Source: a virus
Strand: one strand, 5' to 3'
Virus record (IMG/VR): IMGVR_UViG_3300022752_000024
Span: 78,882 to 142,881 of that record
DNA length: 64,000 nt
Made by a program: the position numbers and the translations under genes. How positions within the stretch are numbered: the first letter of the stretch is position 1; every line of letters starts with the position of its first letter. Positions 15,223-39,391 of this stretch are shown piece after piece. A model generated the notes under the pieces. It saw only the letters and a list, made by a program, of their open reading frames with translations, did no database searches and was not told where the DNA came from.

Positions 15223-15370
15223 ATTCTTTTAGTGTCCTTATTAATTCATCAATATCTTCATCATGCATAAAAATGGTAGAAGAAAATCTAAGACCATCTT
15301 CTCTTTCATCATCAATCTTAGTTAACAAAAACTGTTTACTGCCATATGGTGATATTTTAAATCTTATCAT
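15179..15370 (-). CDS. Small protein of unknown function
   Basis: A 63-residue acidic protein, MIRFKISPYGSKQ at the start and an HDEDIDELIRTLKEYG helix near the end. Its ATG overlaps the stop of the SleB-like gene (ATGA) and it overlaps gp33 at its other end, so it belongs to one translationally coupled run. I do not recognise the family. Confidence 0.6.
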   Translation of the reverse strand: MIRFKISPYGSKQFLLTKIDDEREDGLRFSSTIFMHDEDIDELIRTLKEYGNERGNKRFQSVD

Positions 15371-15897
15371 GTGTTTGTATAAAATATGTGATTACCAATT
15401 TGCATTACAACATGCTTTTTATTCCAACCAGGACTAACATACTTTGCATGGTAAAACATTGCTTGAGTTCTAGCTAGTTTAACATGAGCGATAGGTTGTG
15501 TCAATGCTTTCATTGCAATATATTTGGATTCTTCCCAAAGATAGGCATTCTTTGCCGCAGGAACAGTCGTACATGTCCAACTAAACTGACAGACACTTTT
15601 GCCATTATAATTAGTTTTTTGATATACCACACCACATATGTTTACTGGATATTTACCTGAATTAGTTCGATTGATTGTCACCTGTGCTACTGCAAGCTTT
15701 CCTTCAAAAGATTCAGATCCTGCTTCATAGTAAATATTCTTAGCTAAACATTCCATTTCTTTGCTCATGTGTACTTGAATATCAGTATTGATATCTTGTC
15801 TCACTTGATATGGAAACGAATAGATAAGAATTACAGTAAAAAATAATATAGTAGCTATAAGCAGGTTGACACTTGTGAATATTTTATTTTTAAGCAT
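15367..15897 (-). CDS. SleB-type cell wall hydrolase with N-terminal membrane anchor
   Basis: The 176-residue protein has a membrane segment at residues 9-29 (VNLLIATILFFTVILIYSF) followed by a Hydrolase_2/SleB domain: LAKNIYYEAGSESFEGKLAV at residues 51-70, then QVTINR, a CQFSWTC disulphide-type motif and a late AMFYHA strand. The Glu in YYEAG is the likely catalytic residue of this family, which cuts peptidoglycan. A signal anchor would hold it in the inner membrane facing the periplasm. It is distinct from the GH19 endolysin at 51190. The gene is preceded by a stable UUCG hairpin and a TAAGGAG ribosome site. Confidence 0.85.
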   Translation of the reverse strand: MLKNKIFTSVNLLIATILFFTVILIYSFPYQVRQDINTDIQVHMSKEMECLAKNIYYEAGSESFEGKLAVAQVTINRTNSGKYPVNICGVVYQKTNYNGKSVCQFSWTCTTVPAAKNAYLWEESKYIAMKALTQPIAHVKLARTQAMFYHAKYVSPGWNKKHVVMQIGNHIFYTNT

Positions 15898-15918
15898 TAC
15901 TTCTCCTTAATAGTTAGG

Positions 15919-15936
15919 GAGAGACCGAAGTCTCTC
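15919..15936 (-). other. C(UUCG)G hairpin in leader of the wall hydrolase gene
   Basis: On the minus strand GAGAGAC-UUCG-GUCUCUC forms a 7-bp stem closed by an extra-stable UUCG tetraloop, 22 bases before the SleB-type gene. Such hairpins are known from intercistronic regions of phage T4. No T run follows, so it is more likely an RNA-stability or processing element than a terminator. Confidence 0.7.
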
Positions 15937-16033
15937 TTGTCCCAATCAGGTAGACTTTTTGCTAGTAGTCTTTTCTGGTATGATATTTGAAACGAATCCG
16001 TTTAAGGATTGTGTTGTGTGTAAAAAGTGTGGT

Positions 16034-16060
16034 AGTGAGTTTATTTCTCAGGTACTCACT
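16034..16060 (-). terminator. Possible terminator downstream of pqqA
   Basis: AGTGAGT and ACTCACT form a perfect 7-bp stem with a 13-base loop, 17 bases after the pqqA stop. On the minus strand five T follow after a 7-base gap, which is further than usual. It is the only candidate end signal for the pqqA transcript. Confidence 0.35.
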
Positions 16061-16076
16061 CGACCTGTGATATTAT

Positions 16077-16151
16077 TTAGCGATTTGCAATATACATGGA
16101 AATTTCAAAACCAAAACGCATATCTTGTGCTGAAGGTGTAGTCCATTTCAT
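16077..16151 (-). CDS. pqqA: PqqA, pyrroloquinoline quinone precursor peptide
   Basis: This 24-codon gene reads MKWTTPSAQD then MRFGFEISMYIANR. PqqA is the ribosomal substrate whose Glu and Tyr are cross-linked by PqqE to make the redox cofactor PQQ. The required pair is present with correct spacing (E16-x-x-x-Y20). Trp3, Pro6, Asp10, Arg12, Gly14 and the C-terminal Asn-Arg line up with gammaproteobacterial PqqA sequences I remember. AAGGAG lies six bases before the ATG. No other pqq gene is in the window, so the host would have to supply PqqB-E. The gene lies 93 bases downstream of the tmRNA on the same strand. It is too short for ordinary gene calling. Confidence 0.85.
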   Translation of the reverse strand: MKWTTPSAQDMRFGFEISMYIANR

Positions 16152-16243
16152 ATCATTCTCCTTGATTTGTCATAGCAAAATACTACGACTATAATTATAT
16201 ATGCATAGTGTAACACGAATGTAATAATTAAAACCATTAAAAT

Positions 16244-16274
16244 GCAAGGTGATTGGGTAATAAGGACACCTTGC
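16244..16274 (-). terminator. Hairpin at the 3' end of the tmRNA transcript
   Basis: GCAAGGTG and CACCTTGC pair perfectly over 8 bp with a 15-base loop, followed on the minus strand by ATTTTAATGGTTTTAATT. It may be a weak terminator or a tmRNA structural helix; read-through would transcribe pqqA. Confidence 0.5.
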
Positions 16275-16289
16275 GAAACCCCAAGAGAA

Positions 16290-16331
16290 TTAAGCCGCTA
16301 GGCGTTCATCTCCAAAATATGCATCGTTTGC
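16290..16331 (-). other. tmRNA tag reading frame (ANDAYFGDERLAA)
   Basis: After the usual lead-in AAGTAAAT the frame resumes at GCA and reads ANDAYFGDERLAA then TAA. It starts with Ala-Asn-Asp as in most proteobacterial tags and ends Leu-Ala-Ala, the signal read by ClpXP and similar proteases. Confidence 0.9.
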
Positions 16332-16567
16332 ATTTACTTGTTTTGCTCGGATTACGTCCGTCGCCTTTCGTGTTGCCTTCTCTATTATCTCACCCTGTCG
16401 AAACCAGGTCATCCCCATCAGAAGTACACAATCCCCGCTAGAGCCCTAAGAGGTTTCTTTCATCTAGGACAACTATGCACTTCTGGTGGAGATGGAGGGA
16501 ATCGAACCCTCGTCCAGAATGCCTTCACTTTGAAGGAATTACAACAATTCTAATTCTTGTATTTTAT

Positions 16568-16660
16568 TTATTCATTGTAGCTATACAATAACCAAATACA
16601 AATGGATATCAAACAACCAATAGCTAACCCGATACAGAATCCAGTTATGTATTGTATCAT
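16568..16660 (-). CDS. Possible 30-residue membrane peptide
   Basis: An ATG at 16658-16660 opens MIQYITGFCIGLAIG and continues as a single hydrophobic segment before ending YSYNE. The ribosome site is weak and the ATG lies inside the -10 region of the putative tmRNA promoter, so gene and promoter may be alternatives. Other tiny membrane proteins in this phage make it plausible. Confidence 0.35.
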   Translation of the reverse strand: MIQYITGFCIGLAIGCLISICIWLLYSYNE

Positions 16661-16679
16661 TCTTTATTGATTATGTCAA
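16651..16679 (-). promoter_or_regulatory. Sigma70-type promoter for tmRNA
   Basis: TTGACA (16674-16679) and TACAAT (16651-16656) are 17 bp apart. Transcription would start near 16644, about 85 bases before the estimated tmRNA acceptor piece. Confidence 0.65.
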
Positions 16680-16682
16680 TGC

Positions 16683-17348
16683 TTATTTCGGTGTATTTTG
16701 GCGATAATACGTAATTACATCAATTAAACCATCAATATGATCTTTGACTTTTTCTTTGAAGATTATTGGAGCAGAATCTTTTACTGCCATAATGATAACC
16801 AGATTATCAATTGGAGTACCAATTAATTCTTCATACATCGAAGCATAAGCAGTAGTTTGCCAAAAATAGTCTAAAACATCTTCTTTTCTTTTTACTTTAC
16901 TAGATGTTTTAAAGTCTATTACAGAAAGTTCACCTTCATACTCTGCTATACAGTCAACACGACCTGCCATACCTAAAGTCTTAGACCACAATGCTTGTTC
17001 TTGATAATGAATGTTATCTATGTTGTCTAAGAAAGGTTTAATAGAGAGAAAATACTCAACAGCATCAGGCATGATGCCTCTCATATAATATGGTTCATTG
17101 TTGAGATAATTCTCACAGATAGTATGAACATTGGTACCTCTAGATGTAGCTTGTTTGGAGATTTTATTGGCTTCTTCTTCGCCAACTCTTGCTCTCCACT
17201 CCATGATAGCTTTTTTCTTTTTGGCTCCTACTACAGTGGTTACTGATGGCAACTTAGTACCATCAGGTAACTTGTAATATCTTTTCCCATCAGGAAAAGT
17301 TTCTGATTTTAAATCTTCTAGTTGTTTTGGTGGGCAATATGTAAACAT
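16683..17348 (-). CDS. PD-(D/E)xK family exonuclease
   Basis: The 221-residue product has a nuclease core: GRVDCIAEYEGELSVIDFKT (residues 129-148) followed by a Lys, giving the D...D-x-K pattern of Cas4/RecB-like and mitochondrial MGME1-like exonucleases. Upstream residues WRARVGEEEAN and an RGTNVHTICENYL helix supply further conserved acidic positions. It probably digests or trims DNA ends in replication or recombination. T4-like marine phages commonly carry this gene. The ribosome site before the ATG is weak. Confidence 0.75.
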   Translation of the reverse strand: MFTYCPPKQLEDLKSETFPDGKRYYKLPDGTKLPSVTTVVGAKKKKAIMEWRARVGEEEANKISKQATSRGTNVHTICENYLNNEPYYMRGIMPDAVEYFLSIKPFLDNIDNIHYQEQALWSKTLGMAGRVDCIAEYEGELSVIDFKTSSKVKRKEDVLDYFWQTTAYASMYEELIGTPIDNLVIIMAVKDSAPIIFKEKVKDHIDGLIDVITYYRQNTPK

Positions 17349-17367
17349 AATATAATAGATTTTTTAG

Positions 17368-17775
17368 TTAATTACTAGCTCGTAATACTCTAAGTTCAGC
17401 CGCTGTATTGCAGGTTTCAACAAGTTTAGTAATATCTCGCAATCTTTGTTTTTCAGCTACAATTGCGGATGTGTCTGCATTTGTCTCTAATGCACGTTGA
17501 AATAATATATCTTGAGCAGCTAAAAGAGGTTGCCTTTCATTACGCAAACGATCTATAGTGATTGCTTTAGCTTTAGTAATATTTACCGACACGACACCAT
17601 TATTTAATTCCCACGCACCAAAGAAATCATCATCAGCGTTAGGCAATGTGTTAGCATCAACAATAATAGAATGTTCTGGTGTATGTTTGGCTTTAACATC
17701 CTCAATGTTCATTTCGTTTGTTGGAACACACACTGATACGTTGCCATCTTCATTCGTGTATATAATTACGTTCAT
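17368..17775 (-). CDS. Putative tail fibre assembly protein
   Basis: This 135-residue protein ends with a helical segment (ITKAKAITIDRLRNERQPLL, then a LFQRAL...RLRDITKLVET run) typical of phage tail-fibre assembly chaperones and XkdW-like proteins. Such proteins help fold or trimerise the fibre encoded next to them. The gene directly follows the putative adhesin gene at 17785 and has a clear AAGGAG. The N-terminal half is not distinctive. Confidence 0.55.
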   Translation of the reverse strand: MNVIIYTNEDGNVSVCVPTNEMNIEDVKAKHTPEHSIIVDANTLPNADDDFFGAWELNNGVVSVNITKAKAITIDRLRNERQPLLAAQDILFQRALETNADTSAIVAEKQRLRDITKLVETCNTAAELRVLRASN

Positions 17776-20910: not shown

Positions 20911-22221
20911 TCAGTATTCCCAGCCTTTGCAATATCCAAATCGCTGCAATTTACCTAAAGCTTTCTCGCACCTCTCACCTATATCTGTTCTGTATTGTGG
21001 ATCATTACCGAGTCTAATTTTCTTTACCTGCTCATACGCCTTATCTTTAGCTTCGGTAATGCTATCTCCTGTACCTGTGCAAACAAGAATGTATGACCCT
21101 GCTGTACCCCACTCAGGCACATTCTCAACAAGATTACCTTCAATCATTTTAACGGTGCTACTAAGTTTTACCTCGCATGGATGAATGTGGTCGATATCTG
21201 TATCCTCAGTAAGAATTGGAAAATCCAAATAGTCTTCCTCATCTCTTTGATTGAATGGAAAGTCTGCATTTGCCATAACTACACCTACACAGGTTTTTTC
21301 TTCTACCTCTAGAGTATTTTTACCTTGTACACAATCTAACATCCATTGTGCAGGATCACCTTTGTGGAGTGGTTGTTGAATATTCCACATAGGATATCCT
21401 GGTCTGGCAGTCCATTCCATTGGCCATGGCGTGCCATCTTTTTCGTCAATAATACAATTCATATCCAACATACCAACGTATCCAATAGAATGTAAAGTCT
21501 TTTGCATAGGTTTCATTAGTACATCGGCTAATTTTGATTTGCTTGTGTAGCGAATAACTGTTCCCATCTCTCCAGTATTCACACCTAGGTCACCATTCAT
21601 TTGTTTTTTAAATTCAAAACCTTCAGCAAAATATGGTTGCCAACCACCAGGACCAAAGATACCTGTTACGGCAACTTCAATACCTTTTTTGAATTCTTGC
21701 AGAATGAATGGGGAAGAAGGTTTACCTTTTTCTTTGCGTTTGCTTAGAAACCCGATGAGGTCGGCTTCGTCTTTTGCGACATATGACAAAGTTTTATCTT
21801 CTTCTTCGCCACAAGGTTTACAGACATATCGTTTTGGATTTTCTTTGATGAAAGATATGGCAGCATCGTAATTTTTGAATTCGAATGAAGGAATGATTTT
21901 ACCGCCAAATTGTTTGACTACATTTTGACCATACATTCGATCAAGTTCGAGTTTTGCTGCTCTTTTTCCTGGTCCGAATATTGGATAACCTGCTTTGATA
22001 TATTTGTCTATCTCATCCATATATTCTAGATTATCTGCCAAGAATATAAGATCAGCAATACCCATATATTTGCGCCAATTGTCTACTTTATCGACTAGGC
22101 CTTCACCTATATGAGCCGCTCTTGAACCTTTAGTATAGAGTTTGACTGTGTGTCCGGCTGCTACACAACGCAGACACCAGTCTAATGTTAACCCGCTTGG
22201 GTCAATTACAAGGATGAGCAT
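20911..22221 (-). CDS. purD: Phosphoribosylamine-glycine ligase-like ATP-grasp enzyme
   Basis: The 436-residue protein has the length and layout of PurD (GAR synthetase), which joins glycine to phosphoribosylamine in purine synthesis. Visible parts are an N-terminal Rossmann-like strand (MLILVIDPSGLTLDW), the ATP-grasp middle with FILQEFKKGIEVAVTGIFGP (residues 190-209), and DMNCIIDEKDG with the metal-binding EWTARPGYP. A C-terminal domain ends near RFGYCKGWEY. It is quite diverged from bacterial PurD, so the substrate may differ. It is a plausible auxiliary metabolic gene feeding nucleotide supply. Confidence 0.75.
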   Translation of the reverse strand: MLILVIDPSGLTLDWCLRCVAAGHTVKLYTKGSRAAHIGEGLVDKVDNWRKYMGIADLIFLADNLEYMDEIDKYIKAGYPIFGPGKRAAKLELDRMYGQNVVKQFGGKIIPSFEFKNYDAAISFIKENPKRYVCKPCGEEEDKTLSYVAKDEADLIGFLSKRKEKGKPSSPFILQEFKKGIEVAVTGIFGPGGWQPYFAEGFEFKKQMNGDLGVNTGEMGTVIRYTSKSKLADVLMKPMQKTLHSIGYVGMLDMNCIIDEKDGTPWPMEWTARPGYPMWNIQQPLHKGDPAQWMLDCVQGKNTLEVEEKTCVGVVMANADFPFNQRDEEDYLDFPILTEDTDIDHIHPCEVKLSSTVKMIEGNLVENVPEWGTAGSYILVCTGTGDSITEAKDKAYEQVKKIRLGNDPQYRTDIGERCEKALGKLQRFGYCKGWEY

Positions 22222-26369: not shown

Positions 26370-27536
26370 TTAAAATGGAATTTCGCCAGTTGGTGGTGCT
26401 ACTGGTGCTACTGGTACCACTTCAGGCTCATTCGCTTTTATATCAATCTTAGTGTATAAATCTAAGAATGACGTTTTGGTTTCTGCATCAAAGCGGGCAA
26501 CACATAGTTCAATCGCTTTCATACGATCACCAAAAATCTTATATGCTTTCGCAATATGGACAAGACGGCGAGTAGAGATAATTTCATCTACGGCATTCTC
26601 ATCAAATGATTTACGAATAACATCTGCCCACTGGACGAGCAGTTCAACGAATTCTTTATCTTCAATAAGAGGAGTAAGAATTTTCTTTTCTGTTTTTGTA
26701 TCGGGAAATTCTTGTTCTACTGTAATTGGAAATCTTTCTAAAAAAGCAGAATCTAGAATTTGAGCCAAATATTTTCCTTCGTCACTTCCTTGACCTTTGG
26801 TATTTGCAGTAGCAATCACATTGAAGCCAGGTGCAGGATACACCATCTCGCCATTCTTCTTATTAAAGTATGGCTTACCTTCTAGAATACCTTGCAAACA
26901 CATTAGCTTGTTAGAGCCACGGTCTACCTCATCAATCAGTAAAATCGCACCTCGCTTCATTGCAAGAATAACAGGACCGTCACGGTTAACCACGTTACCA
27001 TCAACAAGTGTAGGACCGCCAAGTAAGTCGTTTTCATCGGTCTCAATAGAAATATTGACACGGATACATTCACGTTTTAGCGTGGCGCATACTTGCTCAA
27101 CCATCAAGGTCTTACCGTTACCTGATAGACCAGTAACGAACACAGGATAGAATTCTTTTGAAGAAATGATATTAGTCAAATCTTTGAAAAATCCAAACGG
27201 TACATAATCAGGATATTTCACAGGAACAGAAGGTTCCGACTCATCAATCAGTTTAGGTTGTTTGAAAGCCAAGACCTGTGCAGCCATTTCAACGGTCTCG
27301 GTTTCTCTTACCTCGATAGGTGCGGAAGTTTTTACTTGCGGTTTAGCAGAACCAGCTACCTCAGGTAATTGATATTGACCACGACCTGCACGATATTCCT
27401 TGCGTGATACAAACCAAAATGGATAAGGTACATCCTTTTCTGTTACCACACGGTCAACCTGGTCACGGTTTAGAATCGCACCTTCGCCATATAATTCAGC
27501 CGCGGCTTCTACAAAAGCAATAGCATTTTTATTCAT
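26370..27536 (-). CDS. MoxR/CobS-type AAA+ ATPase
   Basis: The 388-residue protein has a charged N-terminal third and an AAA+ core: Walker A GLSGNGKT, then DLLGGPTLVDG, Walker B AILLIDEVDRG, sensor VIATANTKGQG and an ERFPITVE box. This is the CobS/MoxR group, known in marine T4-like phages as cobS. Related bacterial ATPases work with VWA-domain partners as chaperones or chelatases. A matching VWA protein is encoded at 37283-39391. I chose the ATG at 27536 (GAGG upstream) over an in-frame start at 27593. Confidence 0.85.
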   Translation of the reverse strand: MNKNAIAFVEAAAELYGEGAILNRDQVDRVVTEKDVPYPFWFVSRKEYRAGRGQYQLPEVAGSAKPQVKTSAPIEVRETETVEMAAQVLAFKQPKLIDESEPSVPVKYPDYVPFGFFKDLTNIISSKEFYPVFVTGLSGNGKTLMVEQVCATLKRECIRVNISIETDENDLLGGPTLVDGNVVNRDGPVILAMKRGAILLIDEVDRGSNKLMCLQGILEGKPYFNKKNGEMVYPAPGFNVIATANTKGQGSDEGKYLAQILDSAFLERFPITVEQEFPDTKTEKKILTPLIEDKEFVELLVQWADVIRKSFDENAVDEIISTRRLVHIAKAYKIFGDRMKAIELCVARFDAETKTSFLDLYTKIDIKANEPEVVPVAPVAPPTGEIPF

Positions 27537-27546
27537 TGTTACCTCA

Positions 27547-27729
27547 TTAAAGATTTTCATTTTGTTTATACAAAGTATAAAATTCAGAATCATCCACGTA
27601 ATTCATTAATTTCATTATAGCAATTACCTCATCAACTGACATACCCATGATGGTCGCCACCTGTTCTGGTGTTTTACCGTCACCAAGCATTTCAACAATT
27701 GTAATACATTGTTCCTTCATTTTACCCAT
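27547..27729 (-). CDS. Small protein of unknown function
   Basis: A 60-residue helical protein (MGKMKEQCITIVEMLGDGKT) with a helix-turn-helix-like stretch QVATIMGMSVDEVIAIM, as in small DNA-binding proteins. It lies just upstream of the AAA+ gene in the same run. A regulatory role is possible but unproven. Confidence 0.6.
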   Translation of the reverse strand: MGKMKEQCITIVEMLGDGKTPEQVATIMGMSVDEVIAIMKLMNYVDDSEFYTLYKQNENL

Positions 27730-37282: not shown

Positions 37283-39391
37283 TTATGTAATCATTCCAAT
37301 AAACTTGTTAAGTACAACACGGTTAATAACTTTGTTTGTATTGTACTTGGTAAACGCTGTAACAAGACTGCGGGTCGTATTCGATTTTACTTGAAAGTCA
37401 CCATCATCGTCAACATCAGTTTCGGCACGAATAATATAATACTCGTCATAACCAGATGAAGTACATGTTACGCTTTTCTCTTTCATGAATTTATCACGAA
37501 TGTCATCTAGGTTTGCAGTCTTAGGAAACAGTCGGCGACTTTCTTGTTTAAATTCACGGCTATTCACAAGATAGAAACCAATAACATTTGTATTAGTAAC
37601 TTGTTTTAAAATGCTTAAAGCAGCAGCAGTATATGATTCATTGCCAGGTTCTTTTACTTTTTCAATAATACCACTAGACTTGTGACGCATGACTGCCGAT
37701 CGTTTAGCGGTAGTGGTAAAACTGTAATCATCTCCACCTTGTCTTGAATACAACAAATGACCTTCACCATCAGTAAGAAAAACAGTATTCACAACTTGTA
37801 GTTTATTCTCTTTTTGAAACTTAGGAACAATCTTTATTGCAGAAAATATTGTTTCGTTGAGAGGTGTGTACTGCATCTTCATCCAGTCTGGGAAGCCACG
37901 CATTCTACTATGAGTAACAAGTTGAGAACCATGCAATAACACGGAAGCCATAAAAGAAAGTTCGTTTGCTGTCATCTTATTTGAAAGGATATTCATCAAA
38001 TGAAAACGTTTCATAATAATTTCATTCTGTTTGTATGTTACAGGTTCTTTGCCTCGTTCTGGATGATCGCCTTGATAATAAAAGTGATTGCTAAAAGCAT
38101 ATACCTCAAAAGGAATATTTACTTTTTTGCAGAACAATACAAGATTCAATAGCTGTTTAATTGTTGCATTCAAATGAGGAACCATCGATCCAGACCAATC
38201 AAGGAACATAACAAGTCCATGTGATTTGCCACCAGGTACAACAGTCAGTCGTTTAAAAATATCATCATTAAATTTGTATGAATAAATTTTACTCATATTC
38301 AAATCGCCAGTCTTTGCAATACTAGCACGTTTCATTTGATCTGCATTTTTACGCAGTTCAAATTCTTTTACTAGGTAAGAAACTACCTTTGAAGATTTTT
38401 TCTTAAATACGTTGAATTCTTCATTTGTAGTTATAGTGTTGAAGTATTGTTCGTTTTTATATCGGCTGATGATATGCTTATATGGAACAATAACACGATT
38501 GAGATCAATATCTTCTGGAATGTCACCATATTCGTAATCCGTAGGATCAGCACTTACAAGTTCTTTTTCACGTTTTCGAAATGCATCATCGGTGTAAGAT
38601 TCAATTTCATCATCTGTATTATTGAATTCATCACCATCAGAATTTTTTCCTTCAGCAGAATCTTCATCTTCTGATTGGTCGTCAGGAGATTCTGGTGTAT
38701 CAGATAATGAATCGTTTTCTTCATCAACTTCATCACCGTCATCAAAATCTTCGGAAGAATAATCAGTATCATCACTCCACTCATCAGTTGGTTCGGCAGG
38801 TTCATCTCCATTCTTCTGTTTGCGTTTTTCTTTTTCTTGGCGATAAAGTGCCATGATTTTCTTAGACACTTCAATAACATCATCAAAAGTTTCTAACTTT
38901 TCCATTTCTTCGACAAGAAAAAGTTCTTCATTATCGAATTTGATACCTAGAGATGCACCAATTTTGAAATGTAAATTCAGTCGATCTAGAATATTCATTC
39001 CATTCAAGTCAACACCGTTAGTAGCAAAAAAATCACGGGAAAGAAGTTCTCTGTAGGCTTTTGAGAATGGCGCACGGAGACCAGGATATTTTCGTTTGAT
39101 TAGTTTTTCAATTCTAGCATCTTCGACAACATTAAGAATTGCTTTAGGAATCTTCAAATCAACAACAGAATCATGCCAACCATGTTCTGGTGTATTCAAT
39201 GCATGACTAATTTCGTGACCAACGAACAGATCGTACAATTCAGGAGTAAGACCATCTTTAAGAATAGGAACTACGAGCTTTCTTTCTTTAAGATTAAAAT
39301 ATGCGGTAGGAACCTTTTTGTATTCAACAGTCAGATTTTCTGTTGCCATAAGTTTGGCAAGCTGCGATTTGGATTCTTGTGTGATTTGCAT
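37283..39391 (-). CDS. Zincin-like plus VWA-domain protein (CobT-type partner)
   Basis: The 702-residue protein has three parts. Residues 1-180 contain HEISHALN (HExxH, near residue 59), a zinc metallopeptidase motif, with a later conserved EDARIEKL. Residues 190-285 are a very acidic linker. The C-terminal half is a VWA domain with the MIDAS motif DWSGSM and an LTDGEG loop. This layout resembles the CobT subunit of aerobic cobaltochelatase and other MoxR-partner VWA proteins. It is the likely partner of the CobS-type ATPase at 26370. Its substrate in phage infection is unknown. The promoter at 39420 serves it. Confidence 0.78.
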   Translation of the reverse strand: MQITQESKSQLAKLMATENLTVEYKKVPTAYFNLKERKLVVPILKDGLTPELYDLFVGHEISHALNTPEHGWHDSVVDLKIPKAILNVVEDARIEKLIKRKYPGLRAPFSKAYRELLSRDFFATNGVDLNGMNILDRLNLHFKIGASLGIKFDNEELFLVEEMEKLETFDDVIEVSKKIMALYRQEKEKRKQKNGDEPAEPTDEWSDDTDYSSEDFDDGDEVDEENDSLSDTPESPDDQSEDEDSAEGKNSDGDEFNNTDDEIESYTDDAFRKREKELVSADPTDYEYGDIPEDIDLNRVIVPYKHIISRYKNEQYFNTITTNEEFNVFKKKSSKVVSYLVKEFELRKNADQMKRASIAKTGDLNMSKIYSYKFNDDIFKRLTVVPGGKSHGLVMFLDWSGSMVPHLNATIKQLLNLVLFCKKVNIPFEVYAFSNHFYYQGDHPERGKEPVTYKQNEIIMKRFHLMNILSNKMTANELSFMASVLLHGSQLVTHSRMRGFPDWMKMQYTPLNETIFSAIKIVPKFQKENKLQVVNTVFLTDGEGHLLYSRQGGDDYSFTTTAKRSAVMRHKSSGIIEKVKEPGNESYTAAALSILKQVTNTNVIGFYLVNSREFKQESRRLFPKTANLDDIRDKFMKEKSVTCTSSGYDEYYIIRAETDVDDDGDFQVKSNTTRSLVTAFTKYNTNKVINRVVLNKFIGMIT

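Follow-up and report, generated by a model that had tools for sequence, protein, structure and literature searches.

A pqqA gene for the PQQ precursor peptide in a T4-like phage, and unannotated pqqA genes in cultured methylophages

The window analysed here, a stretch of 64,000 nucleotides that makes up bases 78,882-142,881 of the 142,881-base record of a T4-like virus, carries on its minus strand a frame of 24 codons which opens with an ATG at 16151-16149 and whose stop codon ends at 16077, with the translation MKWTTPSAQDMRFGFEISMYIANR. A gene of this length and position (16077-16151, stop included) had been claimed, with its strand unstated, in a sequence-only reading that took it for pqqA. 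The strong AAGGAG site and the residues Glu16 and Tyr20 claimed along with it are likewise found: the Shine-Dalgarno sequence lies at 16163-16158 on the minus strand, 6 nt upstream of the ATG, and the two residues have the E-x-x-x-Y spacing of the PQQ-forming pair. The profile check proposed at the same time bears the identification out, since the 24-residue peptide scores 31.9 bits with the Pfam PqqA model PF08042 (cut-off 21.1) and 31.8 bits with the NCBIfam PqqA equivalog model TIGR02107 (cut-off 20), above the curated cut-off in both cases. This gene is the sole PqqA match in the 142,881-bp record, and the same search was positive in 0 of 14 control genomes. The peptide had no match in a search of the PHROGs, and the plus-strand frame at 16077-16151 is interrupted by an internal stop. 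Judged by its sequence, the gene is a genuine and intact pqqA carried by a phage.

One mark of an auxiliary gene is a place between phage genes in a real phage genome, and pqqA has such a place, in an order that relatives share. Its neighbours are of the T4 type, with the gp32 single-stranded DNA-binding protein, the gp59 helicase loader, a late transcription coactivator and a Hydrolase_2 endolysin on one side and a PD-(D/E)XK exonuclease and PhoH on the other; further T4-type genes in the window encode a gp6-type baseplate wedge, the ribonucleotide reductase subunits NrdA and NrdB, and a primase. Directly upstream of pqqA, in a conserved order, is a permuted two-piece tmRNA gene with the tag ANDAYFGDERLAA (16199-16576, minus strand), which was predicted by ARAGORN and scores 148 bits with the Rfam model beta_tmRNA and 153.4 bits with tmRNA_permuted. 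This tmRNA is of the permuted betaproteobacterial type, and tags vary among the many gp32 relatives that have a tmRNA upstream of gp32. Elsewhere on the minus strand of the window lie a 436-residue protein with phosphoribosylglycinamide synthetase (PurD-type) domains above cut-off and no PHROG match (20911-22221), a CobS-like AAA ATPase (26373-27593; PHROG "porphyrin biosynthesis", CbbQ_C) and a large protein (37286-39391; PHROG "peptidase") with a weak match to a cobalamin-biosynthesis PHROG.

The leader of pqqA contains a 9-bp hairpin, GUCGUAGUAUUUUGCUAUGAC (16169-16189, minus strand; predicted fold -9.9 kcal/mol, z -3.13), and ahead of it a -10-like TATAAT (16194-16199, minus strand) that matches the -10 element of a promoter found in relatives. 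In six of these (L123, L124, L125, L128, L130 and L148) a near-consensus TTGACA-N18-TATAAT promoter (TATACT in L130) is followed by the hairpin, the ribosome site and pqqA; the window retains the TATAAT, the hairpin and the ribosome site of this arrangement, a clear -35 element is absent from it, and a consensus scan of the minus strand between tmRNA and pqqA returned no promoter. The hairpin of the T4-like relatives has changes on both sides at 4 of its 9 pairs among 6 sequences, which 15 of 500 shuffles equalled in an alignment whose row L128 is misaligned by one base. The best minus-strand consensus match in 15300-17400 lies instead ahead of the tmRNA, where a sigma70-like TTGACA-N17-TACAAT at 16679-16651 agrees with the consensus at 11 of 12 positions; weaker matches lie at 16612-16585 and at 16412-16384, the latter inside the tmRNA. 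The scan, which scored consensus match only, returned 13 sites overall against 9.3 in shuffles, and it is a guess that tmRNA and pqqA could share one transcript from the promoter at 16679-16651.

The arrangement was followed in viral loci fetched with gp32, for which the best 80 of 597 matches were taken, many of the less alike having short flanks. The ten closest loci (at least 79% identity: L122-L130 and L147) include 8 with pqqA, counting L122, in which the contig end cuts the gene, while the contigs of L126 and L127 stop short of the expected position; among the remaining 70 loci the gene is found in one (L148). Gene order was examined in 47 of the 80. A whole pqqA is present in 8 of them, in each case with a tmRNA on its upstream side; a tmRNA without a whole pqqA is found in 21 of the remaining 39. 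The pattern of presence and absence suggests that pqqA has been gained or lost within an otherwise kept gene order. In L123, L124, L125, L128 and L130, though not in L148, the gene after pqqA starts with KGTKTE..NLKEAFAGESQANRRYLYFANMADIEG and encodes what we take to be a rubrerythrin-like protein; the window has the endolysin at this place.

The gene extends well beyond T4-like phages. When two PqqA peptides were compared by tblastn with 50,697 GenBank phage records, each query matched the same 12 records, 9 of which belong to six cultured methylophages (four records of Melnitz and one each of P19250A, Venkman, MEP301, MEP401 and MEP402). Of the other three, one is ctXG6705, an environmental phage, and two are contigs filed under "Acinetobacter phage MD-2021a". 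The latter was rejected as a pqqA phage, because the one of its two contigs that was inspected, CAKLQF020000010.1, carries a run of adjacent genes (ppk, pqqB, pqqC, PqqD and one of radical-SAM type) and is likely to be mislabelled bacterial DNA. The six are a subset of the methylophages, since MEP431-434, HIM624-A, phIMB624-A, Venkman EXVC038S, MG-MTP1 and RSA-MFP1 (NCBI taxonomy) lie outside the count. The gene is annotated as PqqA in 0 of the 9 methylophage records: in five, that of P19250A among them, the matched stretch carries no feature, and in the four from Melnitz it carries a "hypothetical protein", which in the one inspected is a minus-strand frame across the match. A pqqA gene is shorter than the usual minimum length of gene callers, and it has therefore probably been overlooked. 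A DNA pattern derived from the peptide retrieved at least 120 viral contigs, and a regular expression found a PqqA-like peptide in 120 of 120, Glu and Tyr being kept in this set by construction of the pattern.

The phages concerned are in part unrelated. A 7.4-kb region of MEP301 has only 73-88 bases in common with P19250A, MEP401, MEP402 and ctXG6705, and these bases are the pqqA stretch, from which it appears that pqqA entered unrelated phages more than once. The region matches Venkman and five SAR11 phages over longer stretches, the SAR11 phages being without a PqqA match in the tblastn search of GenBank phage records.

It has next to be asked whether the gene is kept because it is useful or is simply carried along, as a host fragment acquired by chance and without function. 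Sites beside RNA genes are a usual place of cargo, and a 75-bp gene beside RNA genes which many relatives lack would fit that description. A less biased sample was therefore drawn by fetching loci through four other phage genes, adding the gp32 loci, and searching them with a PqqA HMM. Where the flank towards pqqA spans 4 kb or more, the gene is present in 34 of 39 loci (P19250A group) and in 40 of 46 (MEP301 group); it is present in 4 of 45 loci of the MEP402 group and 8 of 80 of the Melnitz group, many of which are shortened by contig ends. In whole records, for which 50 of 52 initially chosen records selected for length were counted, it occurs in 10 of 12 (P19250A group), 11 of 11 (MEP301), 2 of 8 (MEP402), 3 of 14 (gp32) and 0 of 5 (Melnitz, at 37-63% identity). 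Since related contigs such as L125 and L147 or L128 and L129 are not independent, these fractions describe collections rather than separate evolutionary events.

The five groups pooled gave 129 copies at 47 bits or more and two chance matches at 8.5 bits, with none intermediate. Glu and Tyr are retained in all 129 copies, and no decayed copy was seen in this HMM search of loci fetched by other genes, although the training peptides all had both residues and a strongly decayed copy could escape such a model. Frameshifts or a loss of these residues in related phages, which the sequence-only reading had named as evidence against itself, were thus not encountered. The ratio pN/pS is 0.174 over 79 distinct viral copies and 0.10-0.23 within four groups of 5-34 copies, all preselected by a regular expression that includes G-F-E and Tyr. 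A Shine-Dalgarno-like 4-mer precedes the ATG in 254 of 254 viral copies, compared with 271 of 2,540 random ATGs of the same loci, and the other viral copies accordingly look translated too. By these sequence measures the phage pqqA is under purifying selection, and retention by selection, a second mark of an auxiliary gene, is found here in the pN/pS of 0.174 and the 129 of 129 copies with both residues. The low pN/pS within groups, the lack of decayed copies, the ribosome site at every copy and the sharing of nothing except the pqqA stretch between MEP301 and the phages named above all tell against passive carriage, which we regard as extremely improbable.

If the gene is useful, the enzymes that act on its product must come from somewhere. 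PqqB, PqqC, PqqE and PQQ dehydrogenase had no match in the 142,881-bp record, which is possibly a fragment, so that the claim of the earlier reading that no other pqq gene is in the window holds as far as PqqB, PqqC and PqqE are concerned. The same picture is obtained across the pqqA-bearing viral records: PqqE is above its cut-off in 0 of 43 (three radical-SAM-type matches score 17-28 bits against a cut-off of 381), PqqB and PqqC are found in 0 of 31, and a PQQ dehydrogenase is found in 1 of 43, whereas a bacterial genome used as a positive control yielded PqqB, PqqC and PqqE alike. The one exception, G012, is an IMG/VR contig of 72,356 bp in which a full XoxF-type methanol dehydrogenase (608 bits) stands beside the other genes of the pqqA-bearing contig. 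A formate-dehydrogenase-like frame follows XoxF (L338, 3990-8784), with curli-like and phage-like small genes nearby, all but XoxF being named by eye. G012 is taken, with some doubt, for a VP_266-like phage; bacterial contamination was considered as well, since both dehydrogenases look chromosomal.

An intact PqqA in a record in which PqqB, PqqC and PqqE went undetected is best explained, as the earlier reading had proposed, by a phage that adds only the substrate peptide. One PqqA peptide is consumed for each PQQ made, and bacterial methanol dehydrogenases of this kind require PQQ. During infection the phage peptide would enter the host pathway: PqqE and PqqD would join its Glu16 to its Tyr20, after which PqqB, PqqC and a protease would complete the conversion to PQQ. 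If the phage shuts down host transcription, the peptide rather than the enzymes would run out and become limiting, because one peptide is spent per PQQ, and the phage copy could then sustain PQQ-dependent periplasmic oxidation, and hence respiration, until lysis. We consider it likely that the phage tops up in this way a consumed, rate-limiting substrate peptide for the host PqqBCDE, although processing of the peptide, an increase in PQQ and a benefit to the phage belong to what the model would predict. A parallel exists in cyanophage psbA, through which a phage replaces a fast-consumed host component; psbA, however, replaces a damaged protein, whereas the peptide supplied by phage pqqA would itself become the cofactor.

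Bacteria also keep extra copies of this gene. In a family drawn round the genome G403, pqqA is present in 149 of 150 genomes, with at least 2 copies in 141, a median of 4 and a maximum of 12; from its XoxF copies (which match the XoxF of G012 at up to 88%), small genomes and peptides, we infer this family to be the Methylophilaceae. According to PMC4109929, Methylophilaceae have 3-12 pqqA copies while the other pqq genes are typically single. PMC11317620, citing Ge et al., has the availability of PqqA as rate-determining in Methylovorus sp. MP688, and quotes a report that pqqA is nonessential for PQQ synthesis in Methylobacterium extorquens AM1, where orphan copies were not examined. The extra copies of Methylophilaceae and relatives (PMC4109929, PMC9851590) resemble the phage gene in lying apart from the other pqq genes, in their near-identical peptide and, by the motif search described below, in having the same palindrome upstream of part of them; they differ in being chromosomal and several per genome, whereas the phage copy is brought into the cell. 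Of 187 distinct viral copies, 47 have a host-like peptide in the strict sense that it is identical to one from the 30 sampled Methylophilaceae-like loci, although their DNA differs from the nearest sampled copy at 2-9 of 66 bases. This observation bears on the idea that the phage peptide is a decoy, which would bind PqqE/PqqD or the protease without yielding PQQ and so stop host oxidation. A lone substrate-like peptide could indeed compete with the host peptide, but a copy that equals a host peptide exactly cannot be a selective blocker, and the reacting residues, which all 129 copies keep, would presumably be lost from a decoy, so that a blocking role seems very unlikely.

The peptide of the window itself ends in MYIANR and is of another type. 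By exact pattern the IANR type occurs in 0 of the 150 Methylophilaceae-like genomes and in at least 119 stretches of other genomes, by title mostly burkholderial, Methyloversatilis (a methylotroph by name, outside the Methylophilaceae-like family) being among them; the best IANR-type bacterial peptides among the matches listed, for example that of Limnobacter, agree with the window at 19 of 22 residues. The exact pattern A[QK]D[ML]RFGFEI.MYIAN occurred in 0 of 399 genomes of the order searched, so that no bacterial donor was found for the very peptide of the window. Similarity of the tmRNA gave 8 records with short matches only and did not help to predict the host. One locus, L291, is titled "Candidatus Methylopumilus", a title that is doubtful at about 50% G+C and with a genome given as 3.0 Mb. 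Since the IANR type is missing from the 150 Methylophilaceae-like genomes, the methylotroph-like host suggested by the sequence-only reading is doubted as far as Methylophilaceae are meant, and the host of the window phage is probably a PQQ-making betaproteobacterium outside that family, as judged from 22 residues. The enzyme served could accordingly be a methanol, another alcohol or a glucose dehydrogenase.

In a further explanation, PQQ or a product of PqqA serves a role other than alcohol oxidation, such as lanthanide uptake or redox protection. The rubrerythrin-like next frame in 5 of 6 relatives inspected would suit such a role, and PMC11317620 speculates that PqqA is part of an alternative lanthanide uptake system. 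Against this, the single dehydrogenase-bearing record of the 43 has a methanol dehydrogenase of the XoxF type, and wherever a host is given for a pqqA-bearing isolate it belongs to Methylophilales or Methylophilaceae, a point which does not weaken the explanation for the window phage. On balance we think another role unlikely.

Bacterial and phage pqqA genes share a palindrome, TMATGAWWWTCATKA, in part of their upstream regions. Matches at 14-15 of its 15 positions occur upstream of pqqA in 16 of 42 Methylophilaceae-like regions (0 of 126 shuffles), in 37 of 117 regions of other bacteria (0 of 351 shuffles) and in 42 of 202 viral regions (0 of 606 shuffles), the seed having been written after the motif was noticed in viral and bacterial sequences. 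A matrix built from 63 bacterial sites alone finds sites of at least 9 bits in most viral upstream regions, 132 of 202; of 400 random windows drawn from the same loci 22 have such a site, and of 404 shuffles 10. Of 138 viral sites of at least 8 bits, 84 are in plus orientation, and 75 of these lie 60-109 nt before the ATG; the position count covers these 84 of the 138. The palindrome, also in the form CTCATGAAAATCATGAG, is a candidate pqqA operator, for which no regulator was found named in the literature listed. A wider role as an operator of methanol oxidation was rejected, since no site of at least 6 bits lies upstream of 11 xoxF genes (each start being placed at the first ATG of its frame). 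The window has a weak match at 16225-16239, 88 nt upstream of the ATG and overlapping the predicted 3' end of the tmRNA, and its matrix score of 10.3 is marginal by itself, as 18 of 400 random windows reach 10.

This marginal operator and the lack of a clear -35 element in the window, together with the absence of pqqA from some records, the reported dispensability of pqqA in M. extorquens AM1 and the missing bacterial donor of the window peptide, were counted against substrate supply. On the other side stand features read directly from the sequences: the intact coding sequence, the purifying selection, the host-like peptide, the ribosome site, the host-type palindrome of most copies and the near-consensus promoter of the relatives.

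A phage-encoded PqqA is in itself not new. PMC7678222 reported one in 2020 from VP_266 and VP_139, T4-like phage populations of Methylophilaceae in Lake Baikal, along with a methanol dehydrogenase, and proposed a rise in PQQ during infection; the likeness to the window phage lies in the T4-like genome, the PqqA precursor gene and this proposal. The paper also says that none of the putative AMGs it describes occurs in P19250A, the record of which does encode PqqA. The VP_266 gene was described in one population and together with a viral methanol dehydrogenase, whereas the genes described here stand alone, with a dehydrogenase in 1 of 43 records, and occur in unrelated phages. The window phage in particular has no methanol dehydrogenase in its 142,881-bp, possibly fragmentary record, and its peptide is not of the Methylophilaceae type, unlike the setting of VP_266 and VP_139. 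A 2026 paper on a reservoir counts pqqA, pqqD and pqqE of viruses with the AMGs of P cycling (PMC13188868). The string "pqq" occurs 0 times in the papers on the isolates MEP401 and MEP402 (PMC10580990), MEP301 (PMC8024684), Venkman (PMC8163748) and MG-MTP1 and RSA-MFP1 (PMC13059738), and once, as a medium ingredient, in that on Melnitz (PMC9004378). No earlier report of pqqA in cultured methylophages, of the IANR lineage or of the palindrome was found in the open-access literature searched. What is new is thus the unannotated pqqA in 9 records of six cultured methylophages.

On a broader interpretation, pqqA would be a travelling regulatory cassette, acquired or rebuilt as a stand-alone gene by each of several unrelated phages along with the host pqqA operator, so that the PQQ regulator of the host would switch the phage copy on with its own regulon. 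The gene would then be a near-hallmark of Methylophilaceae phages, probably missed as too short, and a second lineage, including the window, would be found in phages of other PQQ-making Betaproteobacteria. We put this forward tentatively, our doubts slightly outweighing our confidence. If cultured methylophages do supply PqqA, the bottleneck that phages relieve would be cofactor supply and not enzyme supply, which is testable with the existing isolates Venkman, MEP301, MEP401, Melnitz and P19250A. The findings also correct published annotations, yield a short DNA sequence as a marker of phages that infect PQQ-dependent hosts, and expose a candidate pqqA operator. The gene is also encoded in a virus contig of jumbo size, the IMG/VR contig G008 of 356,312 bp (locus L029), with the PqqA peptide WTKPTAQEMRFGFEITMYVMNR.
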